Shown one piece after another: positions 12,267 to 35,013 of a stretch of 41,740 bases of DNA. The stretch comes from a virus: positions 1-41,740 of the IMG/VR virus record IMGVR_UViG_3300047554_000581; one strand, written 5' to 3'. Position 1 is the first letter of the stretch. Each line of letters begins with the position of its first letter. The notes beneath the pieces are model-generated. The model did not search any database and was not told where the DNA came from. It was given only the letters and a program-made list of their open reading frames with translations. Made by a program: the position numbers and the translations under genes.

Positions 12267-14488
12267 ATGATACTAAACTATTACGCTATGCAGAGCTTGT
12301 ACTTCATCCGTGCTCTAGGGTTTATGGAAGTTCGCCATGCACTGCTGCTTTAGGTGTAACAGGTGACTATAAGTGTTATAACTCGCCAAGAACGTGCCAA
12401 GACCCTGCAAACTTCCTAGCCGGTGACGAGCAAATAATTAGATGGGCTGTTCCTACTAATGACTTGCCGTTAGAAATAGATTGCATTCCAATTATTAGCG
12501 CCAATGGAATATCCCGCCGCCCGCAAATGTTAGACCCCGGTGAGACCATGGGGGTGAGAGAATCTGTAACTATAAATTTTGATAACGCCCTTTTTAATGA
12601 TGCTGGTTATGATCCTTATATATCTGATAGAACAGAAAATCCATATCTAAAAGGCACCTATTGGGGGAAGTTTTTCGCCAGATGGGGAAGTCTTCAGGGG
12701 TATGAATTTAGAACTGTCGATGGTTATCTTGGCCAAGACATAAATGATATGACGCGCCGGTATTATATAGTTGATTCAACTAGCGGTGTTGATAAAAAAG
12801 GAAGCACATCTATAACAGTAAAAGATGCCGTTAAATTGCTGGACGGTCAAAAGGCGCAGGCTCCATTGCCTTCATCCGGTAGGCTTCTTGGTGCGCTTAC
12901 TTTATCTGGTACATCATTGACTCTTACCCCTACAGGGACAGGTAATTTAGAGTATCCGGCAAGTGGTTACGCCTCAATAGGTGATGAGGTGGTGAGCTTT
13001 ACGCGCAGCGGTGATGCGATCACCCTAACAGGTCGCGGCCTATTCAGTTCATCACAAGAAGAACACGATGCCGATGATACATTCCAGCTTGCGCTCATTT
13101 ACGATAACAAAAGTTTTGCCTATATCATCAATGATATTTTACAAAACTATACTGAACTAGATACGGATTATCTTGATTACGACGTATGGGAAGAAGAATC
13201 CGTCAATTATGTTGGTCAGACATACGACGGGAAAATAATGAAGCCAACACCAGTTAAAACGCTAATCAATGAACTGATTAGAGAAGTAGGCTTAGTTTTT
13301 TGGACTGATCTTGTAAACAAAAAGATAAAAATTAAGGCATTAAGGGCTTTTGTTCCTACCATTGATATAGATGACAATGTTGTTATTAGCGGATCAATGA
13401 ATAGCAAGCGTCTTGATGATAAAAGAGTTTCGGATGTTTGGGTTTATTACGGGAAGAAAAACCCACTTGAAGCGCAAGACAAAAAACAAAACTATAAGTC
13501 TATTTACGTTAAGGCTTCAGAAAACGCAATAGTAGCGCTTGAGCAAAACACACGCGCTATAAGCGAAGTTACAAGCCGATGGATTAAAACATCAAACCAG
13601 TCTGCGGCTGAATATATTGCAAATTCTATTATTTATCGCTATGAGACAGCGCCAAGGCAAATATCGTTTAGAGTTCCTCCTTCAATTGAATTAATAGAAG
13701 GTCAGGCAATAAATATATCCTCAAGAATATTTGAGGATGCTCAGGGTGATCCTGAGCCAGCTTTCGCTTGTCAAGTTATAGGACTGGCACGCGAAAACGG
13801 CTATTATTCTGTTGTCGCAGAAGAATTAAAACTTAATCAGCTGCCGGCGCCGGATGTTAGAGTTATCTCAATTTCTGCTGACACATACGACATTGATTTA
13901 AGGGCGCTTCACGATAGCTTATACTCCCCAGCTGGGGCAGGTGATATAGTTAGACTGGTTATAGATGAAGGGATATATATCGGATCAACTTCGCCAGAAA
14001 CGCCAGCGCTTGACATCGGAATATGGCCTGATACTGTTATTTTGCAGCTAGGTGGCACTGGAACAATTGAAGGTCACGGCGGCATACCTGTTGCTGGCGC
14101 CGATGGAGGCGATGGTGGAATAGCTTTATACACTAGGGAATCTGTAGAAATAATAGGAGATATAAAGATAAAAGGCGGTGGCGGTGCTGGTGGCGGCGCA
14201 ATTGTTGTAATGGGATCGTTCAGCATTTATGAAAAAGGCGGCGCGGGTGCTGGGTTCAATGCAATAAGCCCTGCAACAAAAGATTTGTATCAATCTGGTT
14301 TAGGTGTGCCAGGCGGAAACACAGGAAGGGGAGGGGCGCCGGGTGATGATGGCCAAAACTCATCAACTGTTGGTGTTGGCCTTGGCGTATCTAATTTATT
14401 TGGTGGCTCTGCTGGTCTTGCAATCGACGGATATAGCTATTTAACAATATCATCATCGCCTACAATAGTGGGCGACACTGCAAACTGA
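12263..14488 (+). CDS. Tail tip/hub protein with Cys4 motif and glycine-rich adhesin-like C terminus
   Basis: 741 residues. I choose GTG at 12263, which overlaps the previous stop (GTGA) and lies eight bases after GGAG; GTG at 12254 has no ribosome site. The N-terminal motif has four Cys (C17, C26, C38, C45; the last in CYNSPRTCQDPANF), a pattern I recall from many proteobacterial siphophage tip proteins. The middle is beta-rich. From about residue 590 the chain is glycine-rich (VAGADGGDGGIALY, IKGGGGAGGGAI), resembling polyglycine receptor-binding tips such as T-even gp38-type adhesins. Host recognition is inference. Confidence 0.72.
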   Translation: MNDTKLLRYAELVLHPCSRVYGSSPCTAALGVTGDYKCYNSPRTCQDPANFLAGDEQIIRWAVPTNDLPLEIDCIPIISANGISRRPQMLDPGETMGVRESVTINFDNALFNDAGYDPYISDRTENPYLKGTYWGKFFARWGSLQGYEFRTVDGYLGQDINDMTRRYYIVDSTSGVDKKGSTSITVKDAVKLLDGQKAQAPLPSSGRLLGALTLSGTSLTLTPTGTGNLEYPASGYASIGDEVVSFTRSGDAITLTGRGLFSSSQEEHDADDTFQLALIYDNKSFAYIINDILQNYTELDTDYLDYDVWEEESVNYVGQTYDGKIMKPTPVKTLINELIREVGLVFWTDLVNKKIKIKALRAFVPTIDIDDNVVISGSMNSKRLDDKRVSDVWVYYGKKNPLEAQDKKQNYKSIYVKASENAIVALEQNTRAISEVTSRWIKTSNQSAAEYIANSIIYRYETAPRQISFRVPPSIELIEGQAINISSRIFEDAQGDPEPAFACQVIGLARENGYYSVVAEELKLNQLPAPDVRVISISADTYDIDLRALHDSLYSPAGAGDIVRLVIDEGIYIGSTSPETPALDIGIWPDTVILQLGGTGTIEGHGGIPVAGADGGDGGIALYTRESVEIIGDIKIKGGGGAGGGAIVVMGSFSIYEKGGAGAGFNAISPATKDLYQSGLGVPGGNTGRGGAPGDDGQNSSTVGVGLGVSNLFGGSAGLAIDGYSYLTISSSPTIVGDTAN

Positions 14489-17456: not shown

Positions 17457-18517
17457 TGGCAACCGTATTGAATAGCATCGTGCCAGAGCGCGATAAAGTT
17501 GTGGCATGGAATAGGAATTATAGCGGCGATCTTCAGGCTGGTTTCGTTATTCCAGAAACAACTCCAATAACTGTGACCGGCACAGGATTTGGAACTGCGC
17601 CAGTGGTTGAGATGTTTGCTGATTATATGTCAAAAACAAACGGCTCTAGTGCGACCCTCGATGATCTTGATTATGGCGGCTCTTACGATTCAGGTCACTA
17701 TTTGACTGGTTTACTTCCTAAATATTTTACAGCGTTTGGAAAGTCAGGGCTCAGCCAAAGACAGGGCGGATTGACTGTAGAAACAAACCAAATGACCGGC
17801 TTTATAAAAATATTTAGCAGCCCATTAACCAGTTTTTTTGCTGCTTTCGAAAGATGCACCCCGCCAGATAAATACTTTTCCGGCGCAACAGAGGTCGGGG
17901 TTTTGCCGGACGCATCAACAGACAAGCCCATGTGGTTTCAGAATGGTGCGCATGGAAATGGTCAGGCTGATGTTGTTCTTGCGAGTTACGCAGGCGCATC
18001 CGGTTTTGTTATGACGGGTAATGCAATAAATTATATTGTATACGGAACTAACTCATACGATTTTAACGGGTGGAATAGTTTCTCCGGTTGGCAAACAGCT
18101 GGCGCGGATCCTGATACAGATAACGCTACTATCGGATTTGTAATCACGAATGCAAATGGCACAACAACCCATGGCAGAAGTGATGTGCCTGCATTTCTAA
18201 ACACCATACCTGCACAATTCGATCGTGTTGAATTTCCGGGTTGGGCAGGAAATCCTACATCGCAAGCAAATTCTCAAACTCTATTTTCATGGGTTTACGT
18301 GTCTCGCCATCGTTCGCGAATTGAATTAATCAACACATCAAACAATTCATCTGCAACAACAATTCGCAGAATAGCGTTGCCTCTGGCATGGTCTGACACA
18401 TCAATAACATTTAACCCGAGCGCCGAAATGCGGGACGGGGCAACGCACTACAGAATTGTGATCGCCGATCCAGTCACCGGCGTTGAGTCTCAACAAATTA
18501 TAGGAGCGCTCCCCTAA
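17456..18517 (+). CDS. Hypothetical beta-rich structural protein
   Basis: 353 residues, start overlapping the endolysin stop by one base (TAATG). The composition (Gly, Ser, Thr, Asn, aromatic) and repeated short beta-strand patterns suggest a virion surface or carbohydrate-binding fold. It has no recognisable enzyme motif. A tail-associated protein encoded between endolysin and spanins is unusual but found in some siphophages. It forms a pair with the next gene, also separated by one-base overlap. Confidence 0.6.
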   Translation: MATVLNSIVPERDKVVAWNRNYSGDLQAGFVIPETTPITVTGTGFGTAPVVEMFADYMSKTNGSSATLDDLDYGGSYDSGHYLTGLLPKYFTAFGKSGLSQRQGGLTVETNQMTGFIKIFSSPLTSFFAAFERCTPPDKYFSGATEVGVLPDASTDKPMWFQNGAHGNGQADVVLASYAGASGFVMTGNAINYIVYGTNSYDFNGWNSFSGWQTAGADPDTDNATIGFVITNANGTTTHGRSDVPAFLNTIPAQFDRVEFPGWAGNPTSQANSQTLFSWVYVSRHRSRIELINTSNNSSATTIRRIALPLAWSDTSITFNPSAEMRDGATHYRIVIADPVTGVESQQIIGALP

Positions 18518-19797
18518 TGGCTATAGGATTTCCGCTAACAGCTAACGACGTCGCTCGCGTAATTGTTGCTGATGGCTCAACAAATACTACGATAACAATT
18601 AACAAGCCTGCCAACGTAGTTGACGGCGAGTTAATGCTGTTGAGGGTTTCATCTAACGCGGCAATAAACCCAAACAGCATATCAATTTCTGGCGGTGGCT
18701 ACTGGACTGCTATCGGAAGCAATTATCCAACTAACGGCAGCTTCAATATCCACATGGCTCGCTTTTGGGCTGTTTGGCATACTGGCGATGCAACCACATG
18801 GACGGCCACGATTGGCGCAAGCGATCTTGACGATGAGAGTTTTGTGCAGCGCGTAACTGGCGCGGACACTGCCGATCCTATTGGAGCAGTGGCGGCGGCA
18901 TTTAGTGACGGCAACGACATCAACCCAGTTAGTCCGACAGTCACAACTACCGCTGCAAACTCTGCTGTAATATTTGATATTGGTGTCAGAAACGGTAATA
19001 ACTTAACTACCGAAGATACTGGCGCCCCATCTGGCACAACTTTAATCCATAGTAAACGCACGCGCTCATTTTCATCAGGCCTAATCTCTGGTATTGCCTA
19101 CGAAATGCGGCCAAGCGCTGGCTCAACAGGATCGCGCACATGGTCTAGCTACCTCAACAATGGCGCCGTATGGTCTGGCTATTCGTTCGAGGTTTTAGCT
19201 GCCGCGTCGGCGCAAACTATTACTGATATTAACAGCGGTAATCCTGTAAGCGGTGACACCTCTGGAAATACTTTTACCACAATAGTCTTTACAGAAAGCA
19301 TCACCGACGTCGAAGTGGGCGGACTGGCCTGCACCTCTGTGGTGGAGACCTCTGGCTCTGGTACGTTTACAGTGCCGCCGCCGGTCGATGGTGAAGTCTA
19401 TCCAGAGTTAGGCGTAAACCAAGACGTCGTTATCAGTGGTGCAACTCAGTCAGCTACGCTCGCAAAATCATTCGTATTAACTGGCTACACGGTTACTACG
19501 CTGACAGATCCTGAGTTGGTTGACACAACTTATTTCACCGCCAATTTTGATGTGACACCGCTCACAAATGATCTGATGATTACTGTCACCGATGACGTAA
19601 CACCTACGGCGGATGGTGGTGGAACTACTGACAATCCGAAGACAACTACAGTACTGCACTGGAAGCGCTCAACGGGCGTAATGTATATCTACTCATTCCG
19701 CATTAATGAGGCCGGTGTTGATAATCGCGGCTTAACAGCCGTAGGGCTAACCTCGGTAGGGTTGACTGCTATTGGATTAACGGCGGTAGGCTTATGA
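18517..19797 (+). CDS. Hypothetical structural protein with Ig-like region and GLTxVGL repeats
   Basis: 426 residues. The N-terminal about 235 residues are beta-rich. Residues about 240-330 look Ig-like (ITDVEVGGLACTSVVETSGSGTFTVP). The last about 22 residues are a tandem repeat of a five-residue unit, GLTAV/GLTSV/GLTAI. Similar GLT repeats occur at the C terminus of other phage surface proteins, so a host- or glycan-facing role is plausible (inference). Its stop overlaps the spanin gene start. Confidence 0.6.
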   Translation: MAIGFPLTANDVARVIVADGSTNTTITINKPANVVDGELMLLRVSSNAAINPNSISISGGGYWTAIGSNYPTNGSFNIHMARFWAVWHTGDATTWTATIGASDLDDESFVQRVTGADTADPIGAVAAAFSDGNDINPVSPTVTTTAANSAVIFDIGVRNGNNLTTEDTGAPSGTTLIHSKRTRSFSSGLISGIAYEMRPSAGSTGSRTWSSYLNNGAVWSGYSFEVLAAASAQTITDINSGNPVSGDTSGNTFTTIVFTESITDVEVGGLACTSVVETSGSGTFTVPPPVDGEVYPELGVNQDVVISGATQSATLAKSFVLTGYTVTTLTDPELVDTTYFTANFDVTPLTNDLMITVTDDVTPTADGGGTTDNPKTTTVLHWKRSTGVMYIYSFRINEAGVDNRGLTAVGLTSVGLTAIGLTAVGL

Positions 19798-20297
19798 TGA
19801 AATTAAAAGCGCAGGCAATACTATCACTGGTAGCATTGATTTTTATTGCTTGTGTTTTTTATGGATTTTATAGGCTTGGTGCAAACAATAAGCACTTAGA
19901 ATGGCAAGCGAAATGGGATGCGTTACAACTTGAATTAACCAAGACGCGATTAGAGCAAGAACAAAATAATCGAGATCTGGAACTTTCATGGCAACTCCAA
20001 ATTGATAAGGTGGAAGCTGAAAATGTTGAACTACAAAACCGCATTCTTGCTAACTCTGTTAATGCTGATAACGCCAGCGATAGGCTGCTCGCAGAAGTCG
20101 ATCGTTACGCCAAGCGACTCAAAACCTGCACAGCTTCCAGCGCTGCCATCAACAGCAAAACAGAAGCCACTCCCGACTTACTGCTCCCCGAGCTGCTTAG
20201 AAAACTTGACAATCGAGCGGGAGAGCTGGCTAGATTCGCTGATGAAAGCAGAGCAGCAGGATTAGCGTGCGAACAGTATGTAAAAGCCATTAAATAA
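19794..20297 (+). CDS. Rz: i-spanin (Rz-like inner membrane spanin)
   Basis: 167 residues. An N-terminal membrane anchor (ILSLVALIFIACVFYGFYRLG, residues 8-28) is followed by a long periplasmic coiled coil and a C-terminal domain (DUF2514-like). It joins the o-spanin encoded inside it to fuse inner and outer membranes at the end of lysis. Two in-frame ATGs (19794 and 19797) are possible. The gene ends at 20297, where the inverted repeat bounding the cassette array begins. Confidence 0.83.
   Translation: MMKLKAQAILSLVALIFIACVFYGFYRLGANNKHLEWQAKWDALQLELTKTRLEQEQNNRDLELSWQLQIDKVEAENVELQNRILANSVNADNASDRLLAEVDRYAKRLKTCTASSAAINSKTEATPDLLLPELLRKLDNRAGELARFADESRAAGLACEQYVKAIK
20023..20265 (+). CDS. 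Rz1: o-spanin (Rz1-like lipoprotein), embedded in Rz
   Basis: 80 residues in the frame one base after Rz, wholly nested within it. From ATG 20023 the chain has a signal peptide (FLLTLLMLITPAIGC) with lipobox AIGC and Cys22. The mature part is Pro-rich (KPAQLPALP, KQKPLPTY), as expected for Rz1. A TTG at 20002 would add seven residues. The nested Rz/Rz1 arrangement is the lambda type and confirms a Gram-negative host. Confidence 0.83.
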   Translation: MLNYKTAFLLTLLMLITPAIGCSQKSIVTPSDSKPAQLPALPSTAKQKPLPTYCSPSCLENLTIERESWLDSLMKAEQQD

Positions 20298-20421
20298 AAA
20301 CGGAAATATACGGCCTACCCATAAAAATATCATGCCAACTTTTAAATTATTGATTTATCTATAAAATTTCAAGCTTAAATTTGGAGTCTTGCTGGCTAGG
20401 CCGTATATTCCGCTGTTACAT
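20295..20421. repeat. Long inverted repeat bounding the cassette array (attC-like)
   Basis: Left arm CGGAAATATACGGCCTA (20301-20317) pairs with right arm TAGGCCGTATATTCCG (20397-20412) over 16 bp, with one extra A in the left arm. The outer ends read AAC (20299-20301) and GTTACAT (20415-20421), the geometry of a folded attC. The left core is a poor match and overlaps the Rz stop. On the minus strand the outer arm is followed by TTTTTATTT, so it may also stop leftward transcription. It separates convergent late and leftward operons. Confidence 0.7.
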
Positions 20422-20586
20422 TCACTTAAACACCTTGCACTTATCGGTGCCTTTTTTAGTGTCATCATCGGTGCAAATATATAGCCTTGCCTCTGGCTTA
20501 AAAATGTAATCAACTGTTTTCATGCCAGCGCCCATTACAACGCCAGCCATAAAAAGCAAAAATAAGGTTTTAATATTTTCTTTCAT
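20422..20586 (-). CDS. Cassette gene 1: small membrane-anchored protein
   Basis: 54 residues from ATG 20586 (upstream in-frame starts exist without a ribosome site; AGGGTG lies five bases upstream of this one). An N-terminal hydrophobic segment (TLFLLFMAGVVMGAG) is followed by a short soluble tail with two Cys (YICTDDDTKKGTDKC). The first residues resemble a signal anchor. The gene fills a unit of about 242 bp between two recombination-type sites, with its stop three bases from the TAAC core. Function unknown. Confidence 0.65.
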   Translation of the reverse strand: MKENIKTLFLLFMAGVVMGAGMKTVDYIFKPEARLYICTDDDTKKGTDKCKVFK

Positions 20587-20610
20587 TGCGCACCCTGTAG
20601 TTAAAAGTAA

Positions 20611-20663
20611 ATGTAACAAGTCAATCTTGCGGACACTTCGTGCCGCAAATCTCGGCGTTATGC
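20611..20663. repeat. attC site A
   Basis: Outer cores ATGTAAC (20611-20617) and GTTATGC (20657-20663). Inner arms TTGCGG-A-CAC (20627-20636) and GTGCCGCAA (20640-20648) pair round a TTC loop, leaving one extrahelical A on the left arm. AACAAGTC and CTCGGCGTTA flank the stem as in the other sites. It is unusually short (53 bases). The predicted exchange point is G20657|TT. Confidence 0.82.
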
Positions 20664-20882
20664 GCGTATCGATAAAACGATTGAATTAACTAGCGAAGTC
20701 CCTATTGCGCACCCAATAGCACCAGAAAAAACACTATTCCATGAAATTAAACCAAGCGCATTAAGCGGGATGCAAAGTAAAATAAATAATGTTCCAGCTA
20801 GAAAAAAGAAGATTATTGCTGAGGCAAAAAAAGCCCATATTTTCCCATGACCCATTAAAAAATCAGTAATTATATCTGCCAT
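20658..20882 (-). CDS. Cassette gene 2: two-segment membrane protein
   Basis: 74 residues from ATG 20882 (AGGA six bases upstream; an upstream ATG at 20906 lies in the attC core). Two hydrophobic segments (about residues 15-39 and 52-70) with short polar ends. The stop TAA is formed by the attC core itself (TAAC at 20660-20657 on the minus strand), so gene and recombination site are fused. No family recognised. Confidence 0.68.
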   Translation of the reverse strand: MADIITDFLMGHGKIWAFFASAIIFFFLAGTLFILLCIPLNALGLISWNSVFSGAIGCAIGTSLVNSIVLSIRA

Positions 20883-20902
20883 AAAATATCCTCTCAGAAA
20901 AC

Positions 20903-20985
20903 GCATAACAAAGTTATGAAATTGACGGAAATAAAATTCCGCGTTTAGTTAGTTCGTGCAGCCGCAATTTATAACGGCGTTAAGT
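20903..20985. repeat. attC site B
   Basis: Cores GCATAAC (20903-20909) and GTTAAGT (20979-20985). Inner left arm TTATGAAATTGACGG pairs with right arm CCGCAATTTATAA, leaving an extrahelical G and an extrahelical A on the left arm, the usual asymmetry of attC sites. The 83-base length is typical. The predicted exchange point is G20979|TT. Confidence 0.87.
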
Positions 20986-21153
20986 CTACAAAATAATGTG
21001 ACCATTATCCTTGGCAATAGCAATTAACTTCCTGTCATAATCTTCTTGAAGGCTTTGCATTTTCTGCAAGTATTCCTCAGTGAATTTAGTTTTGTCTTTT
21101 TCGCTATTAAATACAGCCAGTTCTTCAAAACGTGTTTCCCATAAACCAACCAT
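20986..21153 (-). CDS. Cassette gene 3: small helical protein
   Basis: 55 residues, starting at ATG 21153 with GGAG eight bases upstream and ending with TAG directly after the core of site B. Acidic and Lys-rich, predicted mostly helical (about residues 24-49 give a coiled-coil-like pattern, EEYLQKMQSLQEDYDRKL). No membrane segment and no family recognised. A complete single-gene unit between sites B and C. Confidence 0.65.
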   Translation of the reverse strand: MVGLWETRFEELAVFNSEKDKTKFTEEYLQKMQSLQEDYDRKLIAIAKDNGHIIL

Positions 21154-21192
21154 CGTATTTACTCCGTAGTTAATATTTGTGCTCTAAAATCT

Positions 21193-21268
21193 ACTTAACA
21201 AGTCGCTTAAACGCCGCAACTTTGTTGCTCGACAGCGCTACGCGCTGCGGTTTAGCTCGGCGTTACAT
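21193..21268. repeat. attC site C
   Basis: Cores ACTTAAC (21193-21199, perfect RYYYAAC) and GTTACAT (21262-21268). Inner arms CTTAAACGCCGCA and TGCGGTTTAG pair with extrahelical T and G on the left arm. A second small palindrome (AGCGC/GCGCT) lies in the central loop. 76 bases. The predicted exchange point is G21262|TT. Confidence 0.87.
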
Positions 21269-21418
21269 TCACTGGATTTGCTTTGGCTCAATGTACCCAA
21301 AACAGCCGGTACCAGTTGCGGTGCATTCGCCATCACTATTAAAAACACATCCAATGTTATCGCAGTCTTGAATGTCGTCAGTGTTTTCAGGTTCAGAGAA
21401 AAAAGCTATTTCTTCCAA
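21269..21418 (-). CDS. Cassette gene 4: small Cys-rich acidic protein
   Basis: 49 residues from a TTG start at 21418, preceded by TAGGAG with an eight-base spacer. The protein is acidic, with four Cys in the second half (DCDNIGCVFN, then GECTATGTGCFGY), suggesting metal binding or disulphides. The gene stops (TGA) three bases before the TAAC core, the same tgaatgTAAC junction as cassette gene 1. Function unknown. Confidence 0.6.
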   Translation of the reverse strand: MEEIAFFSEPENTDDIQDCDNIGCVFNSDGECTATGTGCFGYIEPKQIQ

Positions 21419-21450
21419 GTTATTTACTCCTAAATTAAATCGCTATGTAA

Positions 21451-21535
21451 ATGTAACAAGTCGTTGAAAAGGACGGTCTGCCCATCCGCGTTTTAAATTT
21501 AGTTTGTACCGCCGCCTTTTAACTCGGCGTTAAAT
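21451..21535. repeat. attC site D
   Basis: Cores ATGTAAC (21451-21457) and GTTAAAT (21529-21535, perfect GTTRRRY). Left arm GTTGAAAAGGACGG pairs with right arm CCGCCTTTTAAC, leaving extrahelical G and A on the left. The flanks AACAAGTC and TCGGCGTTA match the neighbouring sites. 85 bases. The predicted exchange point is G21529|TT. Confidence 0.9.
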
Positions 21536-21730
21536 TTTAATGCCTGATTGAACACCAACTTTTCTTTCAAAATCTGAAATTTCAGCGGCATACCTAGATT
21601 TTAATGCTGGATTTTCAGCCATTAACTTAGAAATGCGTTCTTGGTGGCAATTTTTGTGTATTGGTGAAAGGCTAATTGCGCTCTGCGCCCACGGCCATAC
21701 TATTTTTTTGCAGTCACAACATTTTTTCAT
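21530..21730 (-). CDS. Cassette gene 5: small zinc-ribbon-like protein
   Basis: 66 residues from ATG 21730 (GGTG a few bases upstream). It starts with MKKCCDCKKIV and has HKNCH near residue 29, a CxxC plus His/Cys set that could bind zinc. The C-terminal half is charged and helical. The stop TAA is made by the attC core at 21532-21530. No family recognised. Confidence 0.65.
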   Translation of the reverse strand: MKKCCDCKKIVWPWAQSAISLSPIHKNCHQERISKLMAENPALKSRYAAEISDFERKVGVQSGIKI

Positions 21731-21744
21731 CGCAAGCACCACTA

Positions 21745-21827
21745 ATTTAACAAGGTTATCAAACGGATGCGGCTAGAACACCGCATTATTTATTTTCGTA
21801 CTGGCACCGTTTATAACGGCGTTAGGC
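21745..21827. repeat. attC site E
   Basis: Both cores are perfect: ATTTAAC (21745-21751) and GTTAGGC (21821-21827). Left arm GTTATCAAACGGATG pairs with right arm CACCGTTTATAAC, leaving extrahelical C and A on the left. 83 bases. The predicted exchange point is G21821|TT. This is the best-formed site of the array. Confidence 0.92.
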
Positions 21828-22226
21828 TACGTCTTCGCCCATCTTCTTTAGCCCCTGAACAATGTGCAAGGCCAGATTCATGTAGTCTTTTAATTGCTCA
21901 TCTGTTGGCGGCTCATCACTGTAGTCCTTAATTGATTCCAATGTATCGCAGCCTGAGCATGAGCCGTAACCCACTTTTACATACCAGTAGTCTGAGGGTT
22001 GATAACCTTTAGCCCCAATCACATAAACTAATGTACCTTGGTAATCACCATCATTTATTTCGTGTATGCGTTCTGGGTCTGGGTTAAAATCCCCGTAATC
22101 GTCAGAATCAGTAATTACAGAAATAACATTTTTTACTATTTCTTCGTAATCATCTGGGTGCTTTGCAAAAGTGGCTGCAAGCAAGTCTTTTTTGTCCATA
22201 TATCTATTAACAAATTCTTGTATCAT
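21822..22226 (-). CDS. Cassette gene 6: acidic protein with YGSCSGCD motif
   Basis: 134 residues from ATG 22226, with GGAG six to seven bases upstream. An N-terminal helical region is followed by a beta-rich middle and the motif VKVGYGSCSGCDTLESI, with CxxC, then an acidic linker and C-terminal helix. I recall the YGSCSGCDTL motif from unnamed phage and bacterial proteins, but no function. The stop TAA is made by the core of site E. It is the largest gene of the array. Confidence 0.72.
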   Translation of the reverse strand: MIQEFVNRYMDKKDLLAATFAKHPDDYEEIVKNVISVITDSDDYGDFNPDPERIHEINDGDYQGTLVYVIGAKGYQPSDYWYVKVGYGSCSGCDTLESIKDYSDEPPTDEQLKDYMNLALHIVQGLKKMGEDVA

Positions 22227-22258
22227 TTTAATCTCCGGTTTAATCGTAATTAAGTTAA

Positions 22259-22352
22259 GCCTAACAATTCGTTGCAGCACTAAATAATAAACCAGCATAT
22301 AATTAATAAAGCCAACTTAACAATCAAAACAAAATAAAATGCTGTGTTAATT
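22259..22352. repeat. Degenerate attC site F at the right end of the array
   Basis: The left half is canonical: GCCTAAC (22259-22265, perfect core) followed by AATTCGTTG, the start of classical attC sites. The right half is eroded: TGCTG (22340-22344) can pair with CAGCA, and GTTAATT (22346-22352) stands for the core, but the usual inner right arm is missing. It looks like a site damaged by deletion, marking the array limit. Confidence 0.55.
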
Positions 22353-23984: not shown

Positions 23985-24608
23985 TTAGAATTGAGGATGC
24001 CCGCTCATTTGTGCGTAATCATCATACCCACCACCAAAGCCACCACCATTAGCGCCGTCAGACTTGGCTTTACGCTCATCTTTGTCTTTATATGATGCGG
24101 TCATGCGGTCAATTGTTTGCGCTGGCGTATTTCCGATAATCTCGCGCATTGTTTTTTTATCGACTGGGTTGAATGGTACTGATAGCTCAAAACCATAACT
24201 GTCTTCGCCAGTTGACTTGCTGGTTAATTTCTTTTGCAGAAACATCCCGACCTTCTTTCCGGTTAGCTCTGGGCATATCCATGACTCACCAGCTTTAACT
24301 GCCGTCATGCGATCCACTCGCAGAAGCCCCATAAGTGCATTTAACACGCTTTGGCCGCCTGTGATTGGCTCGCCTATGCCGCCTTGTGTTGCTGGCGCCT
24401 TGGCGTAATATACGCTGATATAATTAGCCTTCAGACCATCTTCTGTTTTAACTGAAAATTCGATACCGGCTGATTTTGTTTTTGCGGTAACAAATTTCGC
24501 TTCAGTAATTTCAACCACATAAGCGCCGCCTTGTGATAGAAATTCACCGCCGCCAGCCTTTGCTGCTGACTCTTGGTTGTACTGTAAAATTACCATTGGT
24601 TGTGTCAT
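23985..24608 (-). CDS. DUF669-like protein (putative ssDNA-binding/annealing partner)
   Basis: 207 residues. The body has the beta-rich look of DUF669 phage proteins. The last about 40 residues are Gly-rich and acidic (GGGFGGGYDDYAQMSGHPQF), like the tail of single-strand-binding proteins. The gene starts three bases after the AAA NTPase gene, a pairing frequent in phage recombination modules. A role in coating ssDNA for replication or recombination is inference. Confidence 0.55.
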   Translation of the reverse strand: MTQPMVILQYNQESAAKAGGGEFLSQGGAYVVEITEAKFVTAKTKSAGIEFSVKTEDGLKANYISVYYAKAPATQGGIGEPITGGQSVLNALMGLLRVDRMTAVKAGESWICPELTGKKVGMFLQKKLTSKSTGEDSYGFELSVPFNPVDKKTMREIIGNTPAQTIDRMTASYKDKDERKAKSDGANGGGFGGGYDDYAQMSGHPQF

Positions 24609-24611
24609 GGA

Positions 24612-25274
24612 TTATGCCTCTTGATAGTAGGATTTAATGGTTTGTGTAACGGTTAATAAATCGTTGTCGATAGTTTCCGATTCAAACATCCCCATTGGTG
24701 TTTTGATTGTGTCGTAGCCATCGTTTTGAGTTGTGAATAGATAATTTCCATCGCGCTTGACTGCCTTCATAACAATCGTGAACAGTCCTTCAATTGTGAT
24801 CTTTTCGTCAAGCAGTTTGCCGATAGTCTTGCACTTTGTTAATCCGCGATCATCGGTTTGCGTATGGGAAAGGACATAGACTATAACGTCATCAGGTGCG
24901 TTTTGAGCGGCCATAAAAATATCCCATGCCGCTCTAGCGATTTCGTTGTACTTTGCAAAAGCGGCATTGCCAGACTCTTTATCCAATACGCGACGCATGA
25001 ATTCATTGGCCATTGTGTATTGGAAGTCGTCAATGATGATTATCTTTTTGCCGACAGTAGGAAAGTAATTTATTGCGCGGCAAATATCAGCAGATTTATC
25101 GGTAACAATTAATGAGCCAGATAGTTTTTCACGATCCCATGATTTCCACTTATTGCGGAATGGTAGTGGCTTTTTAACTGCTTGAATCAGAATGCAATCG
25201 TCAGGATTTAGATTGCGCATTGAAGTTGACTTACCGTTACCGGATTCGCCAATAATTAAGACAGGTGTTCCCAT
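24612..25274 (-). CDS. AAA/RecA-fold NTPase (AAA_24, Sak4-like candidate)
   Basis: 220 residues. Walker A GESGNGKST (residues 8-16) and Walker B KIIIIDDFQY (about residues 76-85) are clear, with a sensor-like VYVLSHTQ near residue 129. The size and pairing with a DUF669-type gene fit the phage AAA_24/Sak4 group of minimal recombinase-like ATPases. ATG at 25274 has GAGGAT upstream. ATP binding is secure; recombinase function is inferred. Confidence 0.78.
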   Translation of the reverse strand: MGTPVLIIGESGNGKSTSMRNLNPDDCILIQAVKKPLPFRNKWKSWDREKLSGSLIVTDKSADICRAINYFPTVGKKIIIIDDFQYTMANEFMRRVLDKESGNAAFAKYNEIARAAWDIFMAAQNAPDDVIVYVLSHTQTDDRGLTKCKTIGKLLDEKITIEGLFTIVMKAVKRDGNYLFTTQNDGYDTIKTPMGMFESETIDNDLLTVTQTIKSYYQEA

Positions 25275-32764: not shown

Positions 32765-33436
32765 ATGATACAAGAAATAATTGAATCGCTTGATTTTATA
32801 GATTCACTTGCTTTTGATGAAAAGGTAAGCGCAATAAATTCAATCAGAAAAAGACTACACGAAATAAGCCCGTTCAAATCATGCCCAGTTGATTTTGTAG
32901 AGTGGGTTAGAAATGAAAATGTTCACGCTAACGACTATAACCCAAACAGTGTAGCACCGCCAGAAATGAAGCTTTTGGAGCGATCAATTGAGGCTGATGG
33001 ATACACGCAGCCAATTGTGACATGGCCAAATAATGGATATGAGGTTGTAGATGGATTCCATCGCCACAGGGTTGGAAAGGAATCGGAAATAGTTCAGAAG
33101 ATGGTTATGGGTTATCTACCAGTTGTTTCTTTGTCGAATGACCGACATGAGCGCAATGACCGTATGGCCGCAACAATTCGGCACAATCGCGCAAGGGGTA
33201 AGCACAGCGTTGCAGCAATGAGCGATATTGTTGTCGAGCTAAAGCGCAGGTTTTGGAGTGACGAGAAGATAGCCAAAGAGCTTGGAATGGAGCCTGATGA
33301 GGTTTTAAGGCTTCAGCAGGTAAAAGGATTGGCATTTGCATTTAAAGATTCTGATTTTAGTGAGTCATGGGAAGCTGAATCATTTGACCAAATTGGGCAA
33401 GATGAGTTTGAAGGGGAAGCAATAAGTGAGAATTAA
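32765..33436 (+). CDS. ParB-like nuclease-domain protein (IbrB-type)
   Basis: 223 residues. ParB/sulfiredoxin-fold motifs are visible: HANDYNPNSVAPPEMKLLERSIEADGYTQPIVTW, VVDGFHRHRVG and ATIRHNRARGKHSV. A downstream HTH-like helix pair (SDEKIAKELGMEPDEVLRLQQV) follows. IbrB proteins are paired with PAPS-reductase-like IbrA proteins; here the IbrA homologue is two genes downstream. ParB-fold proteins can be CTPases, nucleases or kinases. The activity of this group is unknown. Confidence 0.8.
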   Translation: MIQEIIESLDFIDSLAFDEKVSAINSIRKRLHEISPFKSCPVDFVEWVRNENVHANDYNPNSVAPPEMKLLERSIEADGYTQPIVTWPNNGYEVVDGFHRHRVGKESEIVQKMVMGYLPVVSLSNDRHERNDRMAATIRHNRARGKHSVAAMSDIVVELKRRFWSDEKIAKELGMEPDEVLRLQQVKGLAFAFKDSDFSESWEAESFDQIGQDEFEGEAISEN

Positions 33437-33812
33437 TAGAATTTATCATCATTATTCAAAGTGTGAAGAATATAAAAGCGTTATGTGGCAGACATCTATG
33501 GGTATCGATCAAGAATTAAAAATTCAGCAATGCGTTAATTTTATGTCAGATACTGATGTTTTTGAGGCTCACATGATGCTAGTTATATCTGAATGGCCTA
33601 TGTCATGCGAGGCAAATTTTACCAATGGATCTATTAATCAAGTTGCTTGGCTTGGTCAGGCGGCCGCCGCAATTGGAATAGATAGCCCAGAAGACATTAC
33701 AAAAAAAGCATGGGGAATGCTTTCTTCTGAAAAGCAAGATCTAGCAAATATTGCAGCAAGGCGCCAGATAAAGAAATGGAAAGATGCGCACTTGGAGAAA
33801 ATATATGCCTAA
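33426..33812 (+). CDS. Hypothetical protein of the Ibr-like cluster
   Basis: 128 residues starting with GTG at 33426, inside the end of the ParB-like gene. The segment HHYSKCEEYKSVMWQ and a helical, Ala-rich C terminus are visible. I recall proteins of this type beside ParB/PAPS-reductase pairs in other phages, but not a function. It overlaps the next gene by eight bases, so the three genes are translated as a unit. Confidence 0.6.
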   Translation: MRINRIYHHYSKCEEYKSVMWQTSMGIDQELKIQQCVNFMSDTDVFEAHMMLVISEWPMSCEANFTNGSINQVAWLGQAAAAIGIDSPEDITKKAWGMLSSEKQDLANIAARRQIKKWKDAHLEKIYA

Positions 33813-35013
33813 AAAATACCTTGGAGTTGATGTTCTTAGTGCCGCGAAGGAAAGAATAAATTACACGTTTGATAATTTCGAGCGTATTTGCATTTCATTC
33901 TCAGGCGGAAAAGATTCTGCAGTAATGCTTCATCTTGTAATGGATGAGGCAATTAAGCGCGGCGTTAAGGTTGGTGTTTTATTTATCGACTGGGAGTGCC
34001 AAATGCGAATGACAATAGAATTTTGTGAGGCCATGTTTGCAAAATACTGGGATCATATCGAGCCATTTTGGGTATCGCTTCCAATGAAAACATGGAACGC
34101 AACAAGCCAGTATGAGCCTGAGTGGACTTCATGGGATGAAAACAAAAAAGATTTATGGGTTCGTCAGCCAAGTAAATACTCAATAACAGATCAATCATTT
34201 TTTGATTTCTATTTTTACGCGATGCCATTTGAAGAATTTGTTCCATGTTTTGCTAAATGGTATTCGCAAGGTAAGCCATGCGCCCAGTTTGTTGGTATTC
34301 GTGCAGATGAGTCTTTAAACCGATTTAGGACTATAGCGCGCAACAAGCCAATGTTTGATGGGAAGCCGTGGACTACAAATGTTATAGAAAACGCTTGGAA
34401 TGTTTACCCTATTTACGATTTTAAAACATCTGATGTTTGGGTTTATCTTGGGAAATACGAAAAAGAATACAACAAGCTCTACGACTTCATGATGCAGGCA
34501 GGAATGAAGATTTCACAAATGCGTATATGTGAGCCGTTTGGAGATGAGGCAAGAAAGGGCTTGTGGCTGTATCAAGTGTGCGAGCCTGAAATGTGGGCAA
34601 AGCTTGCTCTTAGGGTTGCCGGAGCAAATACAGGCGCGCTTTACGCAACTGAAAAAGGCGCAGTAATGGGGAACCATAGTATTTCATTGCCAGAAGGTCA
34701 TGATTACAAGTCTTTTGTGCAGCATCTACTTTCTACGATGCCAACTAGAACTGCTGAGCACTACAAAAACAAGCTTTTTGTTTATCTTAATTGGTGGGCA
34801 AAAAGAGGTTATGAAAACGGAATACCAGACTATGTTGATGTAAAGCTTGAAAATAAAGGAAAGGTTCCGTCTTGGCGAAAAATATGTAAAACAATGCTTA
34901 GAAATGATTTCTGGTGTAAGGGTCTTGGATTTAGCCCAACAAAAAGCGCGGCTTACGAAAAATATATGAAGCAAAAAGCAGAAAAAAGGAAAGAAACTGG
35001 GGTGATGATATGA
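33805..35013 (+). CDS. PAPS-reductase-like PP-loop ATPase, DUF3440 (IbrA-type)
   Basis: 402 residues from ATG 33805 (GGAG upstream). The PP-loop SFSGGKDSAVMLHL (about residues 32-45) is intact. Family features DWECQMRMTIEFCEAMF, FVGIRADESLNRFRTI, YPIYDFKTSDVWVYLGKY and MRICEPFGDEARKGLWLYQVCEPE are the IbrA/DUF3440 pattern. PP-loop enzymes adenylate a substrate, often for sulfur transfer; DndC of DNA phosphorothioation is a distant relative. Whether this protein modifies DNA, RNA or a metabolite is not known. Confidence 0.88.
   Translation: MPKKYLGVDVLSAAKERINYTFDNFERICISFSGGKDSAVMLHLVMDEAIKRGVKVGVLFIDWECQMRMTIEFCEAMFAKYWDHIEPFWVSLPMKTWNATSQYEPEWTSWDENKKDLWVRQPSKYSITDQSFFDFYFYAMPFEEFVPCFAKWYSQGKPCAQFVGIRADESLNRFRTIARNKPMFDGKPWTTNVIENAWNVYPIYDFKTSDVWVYLGKYEKEYNKLYDFMMQAGMKISQMRICEPFGDEARKGLWLYQVCEPEMWAKLALRVAGANTGALYATEKGAVMGNHSISLPEGHDYKSFVQHLLSTMPTRTAEHYKNKLFVYLNWWAKRGYENGIPDYVDVKLENKGKVPSWRKICKTMLRNDFWCKGLGFSPTKSAAYEKYMKQKAEKRKETGVMI

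Follow-up and report, generated by a model that had tools for sequence, protein, structure and literature searches.

We analyzed a 41,740-nucleotide stretch of viral DNA (IMG/VR record IMGVR_UViG_3300047554_000581, positions 1 to 41,740; hereafter the window) in which a row of small genes is separated by sites resembling the attC recombination sites of integrons. The row begins directly downstream of an Rz-like spanin gene (positions 19794 to 20297, + strand; phrog_312, E = 8e-33; PF10721, E = 7e-18), which is the last gene of the rightward late operon. An attI-like head site in its long form follows (20299 to 20417, + strand; ATATACGGCC ... GGCCGTATATTCCGCTG|TT), with the exchange point between 20415 and 20416, and then come six units of one gene each. 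The original prediction, made from the letters alone, had described this region as a set of five attC sites embedded in a phage genome.

We scored attC membership with our own covariance model, R1, and not with the IntegronFinder or HattCI models. R1 was trained on 18 attC sites from bacterial contigs and none from phages or the window; about half of these were retrieved with a pattern derived from the window, and the remainder were independent of that pattern. R1 matched the window on the + strand at 20611 to 20663 (site A, E = 2.2e-6), 20903 to 20985 (B, 2.7e-5), 21193 to 21268 (C, 1.7e-8), 21451 to 21535 (D, 7e-9), and 21745 to 21827 (E, 3.6e-6). Beyond these five sites, there was no match up to E = 5 on either strand of the 41.7 kb. 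The matches coincide exactly with the five predicted sites, and the covariance-model check proposed with the prediction was significant at every one of them. As a control, R1 recovered 13 textbook class 1 plasmid integron attC sites, 13 of 13 on the gene-sense strand, and the strand it reports can therefore be trusted. All five window sites share the form TAACAA...GGCGTTA (region 20.4 to 22.3 kb). Extrahelical bases had been said to lie always on the same arm; this held for sites B and E, which carry two extra left-arm bases and no extra right-arm bases, and no such clear pattern was seen for A, C, and D. In unconstrained DNA folding, the canonical attC hairpin was not the minimum, a weak result that we did not use as attC support, and an Rfam scan of the window gave no matches. 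We conclude that sites A to E are attC sites.

One small open reading frame (ORF) was found in each unit, as predicted. The units run on the + strand with their attC sites, and all six genes lie on the − strand. Cassette 1 (20416 to 20657, with site A; ends GTTACATT/AATGTAAC) encodes 54 amino acids (aa) at 20422 to 20586, and over 57 aa of a longer, 65-aa ORF its protein is 77% identical to its counterpart in the related record G009. Cassette 2 (20658 to 20979, with site B; ends GTTATGCG/CGCATAAC) encodes 74 aa, hydrophobic by inspection, at 20658 to 20882 with AGAGGA upstream. Cassette 3 (20980 to 21262, with site C; ends GTTAAGT/ACTTAAC) has a 55-aa gene at 20986 to 21153 preceded by GGAG. 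Cassette 4 (21263 to 21529, with site D; ends GTTACATT/AATGTAAC) has a 49-aa, cysteine-rich gene with a TTG start at 21269 to 21418, preceded by AGGAG, and cassette 5 (21530 to 21821, with site E; ends GTTAAATT/AATTTAAC) has a 66-aa gene at 21530 to 21730. Cassette 6 (21822 to 22265; ends GTTAGGCT/AGCCTAAC) stops in a bare left half-site (AAC at 22263 to 22265). This half-site, which starts at 22259, reads GCCTAACAATTCG, and its core pairs with GTTAGGC of site E. R1 gave no match at 22260, and the right half of this attC is either missing or decayed below scoring. The cassette 6 gene (21822 to 22226; GGAG upstream) encodes 134 aa, or 158 aa from an earlier ATG, and belongs to phrog_12588 (E = 2e-16), a family without assigned function.

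The first bases (TTRRRY) and the last core (RYYYAAC) of an integron cassette both belong to that cassette, and they pair with each other and not with the neighbor in the same hairpin. Across all six window units, counted from 20415 (head) through 22263 (half-site), the variable core bases paired across the gene rather than within the hairpin at 24 of 24 positions. Only 2 of the 720 possible unit rearrangements match this pairing, namely, the true order and one that arises from two cassettes with an identical core. We retrieved relatives by DNA pattern; 26 viral contigs yielded 27 stretches and bacterial contigs another 21, counts that do not estimate prevalence. Among 101 neighboring site pairs in the related phages, pairing was perfect across the gene in 87 and within the hairpin in 11 (shuffle control: mean, 13.9; maximum, 28). 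Pairing across the gene characterizes cassettes that are exchanged at G|TT, and the window units are thus cassettes with ends at G|TT.

Comparison of the related phages, in which R1 made 142 matches in the records examined, revealed exchange at the same boundary. The window and G006 are 82% identical over the 120 bp left of the head exchange point and 35% identical right of G|TT. Likewise, G008 and G022 are 88% identical on the left and 16% on the right, and G008 and G017 (83% left, 97% right) have the same first cassette. A 449-bp unit of G018 recurs in G006 (97% identity) between other flanking sequences on both sides, and window cassette 1 takes second place in the array of G009, where homology begins exactly at G|TT. 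These phages swap cassettes with one another at G|TT, in agreement with the proposal that related phages would show swapped cassettes with precise boundaries. Searches of 50,697 phage records with the cassette locus (blastn) and with cassette protein 1 (tblastn) gave no matches, and a related-locus search with the tail-end protein (18517 to 19797) confirmed none.

While a degenerate site had been predicted at each end of the array, only the right end is of this kind, as the bare left half-site. The left end is a conserved element, not a decayed attC, and its sequence likeness and its position before the first cassette mark it as a probable attI-type site. The head begins directly after the stop codon of the spanin-like gene in the window, G006, G008, G022, G017, and L046, and the spanins that precede the heads fall into at least two sequence groups. 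With its two arms joined, the window head is identical to a host attI (described below) at 25 of 33 positions (shuffle maximum, 21). Phage heads in general reach 21 to 28 of 33 against the host-family attI, above all 20,000 shuffles, a test that is somewhat overstated because two stretches of the head motif were in our search patterns; the middle GCCGT element was not. The single phage record G006 has two arrays (L055 and L056; 23266, + strand, and 7183, − strand). Each has an attI-like head to itself, which is of the short form in one array and of the long form in the other.

The bacterial attI came from a metagenome-assembled genome (MAG), G027, which has an intact IntI gene and whose attI has the exact 16-mer CGGAAATATACGGCCT in common with the window. 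In the family of G027, the attI reads GATATACGGCTTGAGCCGTTTAATAAACTG|TTA and similar and occurs at 11 places in 6 genomes, with none for a reversed control pattern; its layout is ATATACGGC..GCCGT..TAATAAACTG|TTA. Short phage heads, e.g., GATATACGGCTCAGGCCGTTTATTCCGCTG|TTA, have about the same 26-nucleotide (nt) spacing; in long heads, that of the window among them, the two arms are separated by about 71 or 81 additional bases. Two phages have the host core GAATAAACTG|TTA itself. IntI was found in 111 of 144 genomes of this family, which also includes a MAG deposited as Cellvibrionaceae bacterium. The bin of G027 contains phage contigs with the head (L046), and a search for the phage head as a chromosomal feature found it only in one phage contig of G027. 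As a separate observation, G056:C1, from another genome of the host family, has four attI-like sites (1954717, 2028838, 3848439, and 4336446; L165, L171, L174, and L175), and no IntI relative was found in G056 at E values up to 1e-60. The four sites may represent orphan docking sites.

The original prediction overlooked that all cassette genes are inverted relative to their attC sites. It is usual, though not obligatory, for a cassette gene to have the same direction as its attC. In the window, 6 of 6 genes are antisense to attC, and among 102 phage units the better gene was antisense in 90, sense in 3, and unclear in 9. Counted by record, 26 were antisense, none was sense, and one was a tie. 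In contrast, bacterial chromosomal arrays combined gave 64 sense and 12 antisense genes, with 37 and 9, respectively, in host-family arrays. A comparison of chromosomal arrays (27 sense, 3 antisense) and class 1 plasmid integrons (9 sense, 0 antisense) with the phage arrays gave a p value of about 1e-20, which is too small because units within an array are not independent. The phages thus appear to maintain an inverted pool of cassettes of their own. The simplest reason would be geometric: the attI-like site is at the far end of a leftward operon, so that only inverted genes would be read. Since the cassette genes read towards the head, a Pc promoter at attI could not express them. Antisense cassettes, at least one of them small, were also seen on the − strand in two bacterial integrons (L114 from Rheinheimera, 12487 to 12683; L029, 1843 to 2705), and an exchange with phage-type cassettes is possible there.

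As the original prediction had it, no intI is present: our integrase search gave no match in the window. Nor did any of the 26 related viral records with arrays hold an integron integrase over the cutoff (0 of 26), and no IntI relatives in viral contigs were confirmed. The label of a cluster of attC sites lacking an integrase (CALIN), which the prediction had applied, fits in part. There are at least two attC sites and no neighboring intI, but an attI-like site is foreign to a plain CALIN, and because of this left end the array is not a plain CALIN. The absence of intI from the 26 array-bearing phage records favors a host IntI that acts in trans on the phage array, as does the resemblance of the phage head to the attI of a bacterial family that carries IntI.

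Taken together, we consider it very probable that the phage carries an integron without an integrase and with inverted cassettes, which is served by the host IntI in trans. According to this model, an attI-like docking site after the lysis genes would be followed by the small-gene cassettes, whose attC sites look functional, and the chromosomal IntI of the host would act on them during infection. Circular cassettes, mostly released from other phages, would be taken up by the host IntI and joined at G|TT, either in the phage attI or in an attC site. As the orientation in which an attC is inserted would be set by attI, a cassette would be codirectional with the leftward operon, and hence expressed, only if its gene lies backwards to attC, and the phages would therefore keep an inverted pool distinct from that of the host. 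The inversion could have a further effect, in that it is predicted to make the recombinogenic attC bottom strand the displaced nontemplate strand in phage transcription, which could raise exchange during infection.

The same array might instead be a passive relic, i.e., a piece of a chromosomal integron that an ancestor phage acquired once and that ordinary homologous recombination between phages has since reshuffled. The leftward operon that contains the cassettes includes genes for SSB and for a Sak4-like annealing protein (23985 to 25274), phages are mosaic, the attC ends have short sequence in common, and the right end of the array is degenerate, all of which would suit such a history. However, where phages have a cassette in common, it starts or stops exactly at G|TT and the sequence beyond is unrelated, and homologous exchange within the hairpins would scramble the cores, contrary to the pairing across units in 87 of 101 cases. 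The sense genes of host-type arrays and the antisense genes of phage arrays do not fit a simple relic of chromosomal origin either. We therefore regard this explanation as unlikely. A recombinase encoded by phages, and not the host IntI, could also move the cassettes and have gone unrecognized. G016, G025, and G012 encode ordinary tyrosine recombinases weakly like the IntI family model, and most array-bearing contigs are fragments from which such a gene could escape notice. Yet the window and the longer records G006, G007, G008, G010, G011, and G022 gave no such match, and the heads copy the attI of host IntI integrons, which makes a phage recombinase quite improbable.

Scarcely credible, in our view, is that the hairpins are regulatory elements that merely resemble attC, such as T4-type promoter stem-loops, terminators, or RNA processing sites. 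They do recur between small phage genes, and the head is a strong hairpin (z = −4.8) between convergent operons that could also end transcription. Consensus scans against shuffled sequence, however, gave 5 promoter-like matches versus 7.0 and 3 terminator-like matches versus 1.9, with no excess, and we rejected a promoter or terminator reading of the region. A regulatory role also leaves the pairing of cores across units and the attI likeness unaccounted for, and a model of bacterial attC matches the sites strongly. Small phage genes are shuffled as units in the PeSL mobile regulatory cassettes of T4-type phages, with stem-loops between them and a promoter for each. The window array resembles these in having small genes as units separated by stem-loops, but PeSL cassettes are not known to have attC, attI, or G|TT boundaries, and their own promoter per unit differs from the lack of promoter excess here.

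Several observations weigh against an integrase-less integron that is served by a host IntI. The retrieval pattern came from the window, which biases the survey, and the units of one array are not independent in the orientation counts, where the count by record agrees in direction. The gene is common to cassette 1 and its counterpart in G009, but much of the attC differs between them, so a cassette gene and its attC need not move together. Relative to bacterial attI, the window head contains an additional loop of about 81 nt, and R1 does not score this head as attC. Chromosomal attC sites in the family of G027 are longer (median, 132 versus 84 bases). None of the window cassette genes was found in the 144 host-family genomes, in which a DNA search with the whole array gave only attC-sized stretches. 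The assignment of the host to this family is a proposal, drawn from motif likeness and from phage contigs binned with one MAG.

Phage attC clusters as such are not new. Qi et al. (2023; PMC9892861) described 17 of them, and IntI1 recombined the bottom strands of phage attC at G|TT for 5 of 6 tested sites. As attC clusters had already been published with a recombination test, the idea itself is not new either. The CALINs of virulent phages in that report (TJE1, P12002L, and PH101) are likewise attC arrays without intI in lytic phages; they are treated singly there, with no cassette swapping between phages shown, unlike the arrays in this study. The same report gives attI only for temperate or cryptic prophages, and no mention of gene inversion was found in it. 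R1 places the attC sites of PH101 on the + strand and its deposited genes are on the − strand, which makes it the inverted type, as in the window. The Shewanella cryptic prophage M16-3 (PMC9892861) also has an attI opening a cassette array inside phage DNA, but, as described there, it additionally contains a complete integron with intI, and the prophage is inactive. In that paper and the other open-licence literature searched, we did not find a host-matching attI-like head in tailed phages, systematic inversion, or exchange of cassettes from phage to phage at G|TT. The G027 family has sedentary chromosomal integrons whose attI element is spaced about as in the phage heads and whose cassettes also end at G|TT; they differ from the phage array in having intI, mostly sense genes, and longer attC sites. 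Beyond these systems, an attC-like array with large sense genes was seen on a 4.5-kb contig of a MAG labeled Thermoplasmata archaeon (L031), and archaeal integrons have already been published.

The window belongs to a marine tailed phage, with genes for terminase, portal, capsid, tail tape measure, and spanin. Its TerL (378 to 2141) is about 75% identical to those of Pseudomonas phages TC7 and phi2. At 32765 to 35013, genes for ParB-like and PAPS reductase-like proteins are 86 to 89% identical to those of G010, a phage that also has a cassette array. We scanned 49 cassette proteins, of which two resembled Lar restriction-alleviation proteins and one was a Cro/HTH protein; the Lar-like genes belong to related phages. 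The others were unknown or fell into phage families without assigned function. A benefit to the phage, such as escape from restriction, may follow from cargo of this kind.

Until now, integrons have been known as a means by which bacteria stock genes. If our model is true, the integrase of the host also serves gene exchange among phages, and small accessory genes are shuffled as modules by a site-specific route where homologous recombination was assumed. Such arrays would be a place to look for antirestriction and other host-takeover genes and would open a path along which genes could pass between phages and integrons. By a narrow balance, we favor the broader view that marine phages of a gammaproteobacterial family run a cassette economy of their own on a borrowed enzyme, in which a mimic of the host attI and an inverted pool that only phage operons express would let them swap antidefense and other small genes through the host IntI.

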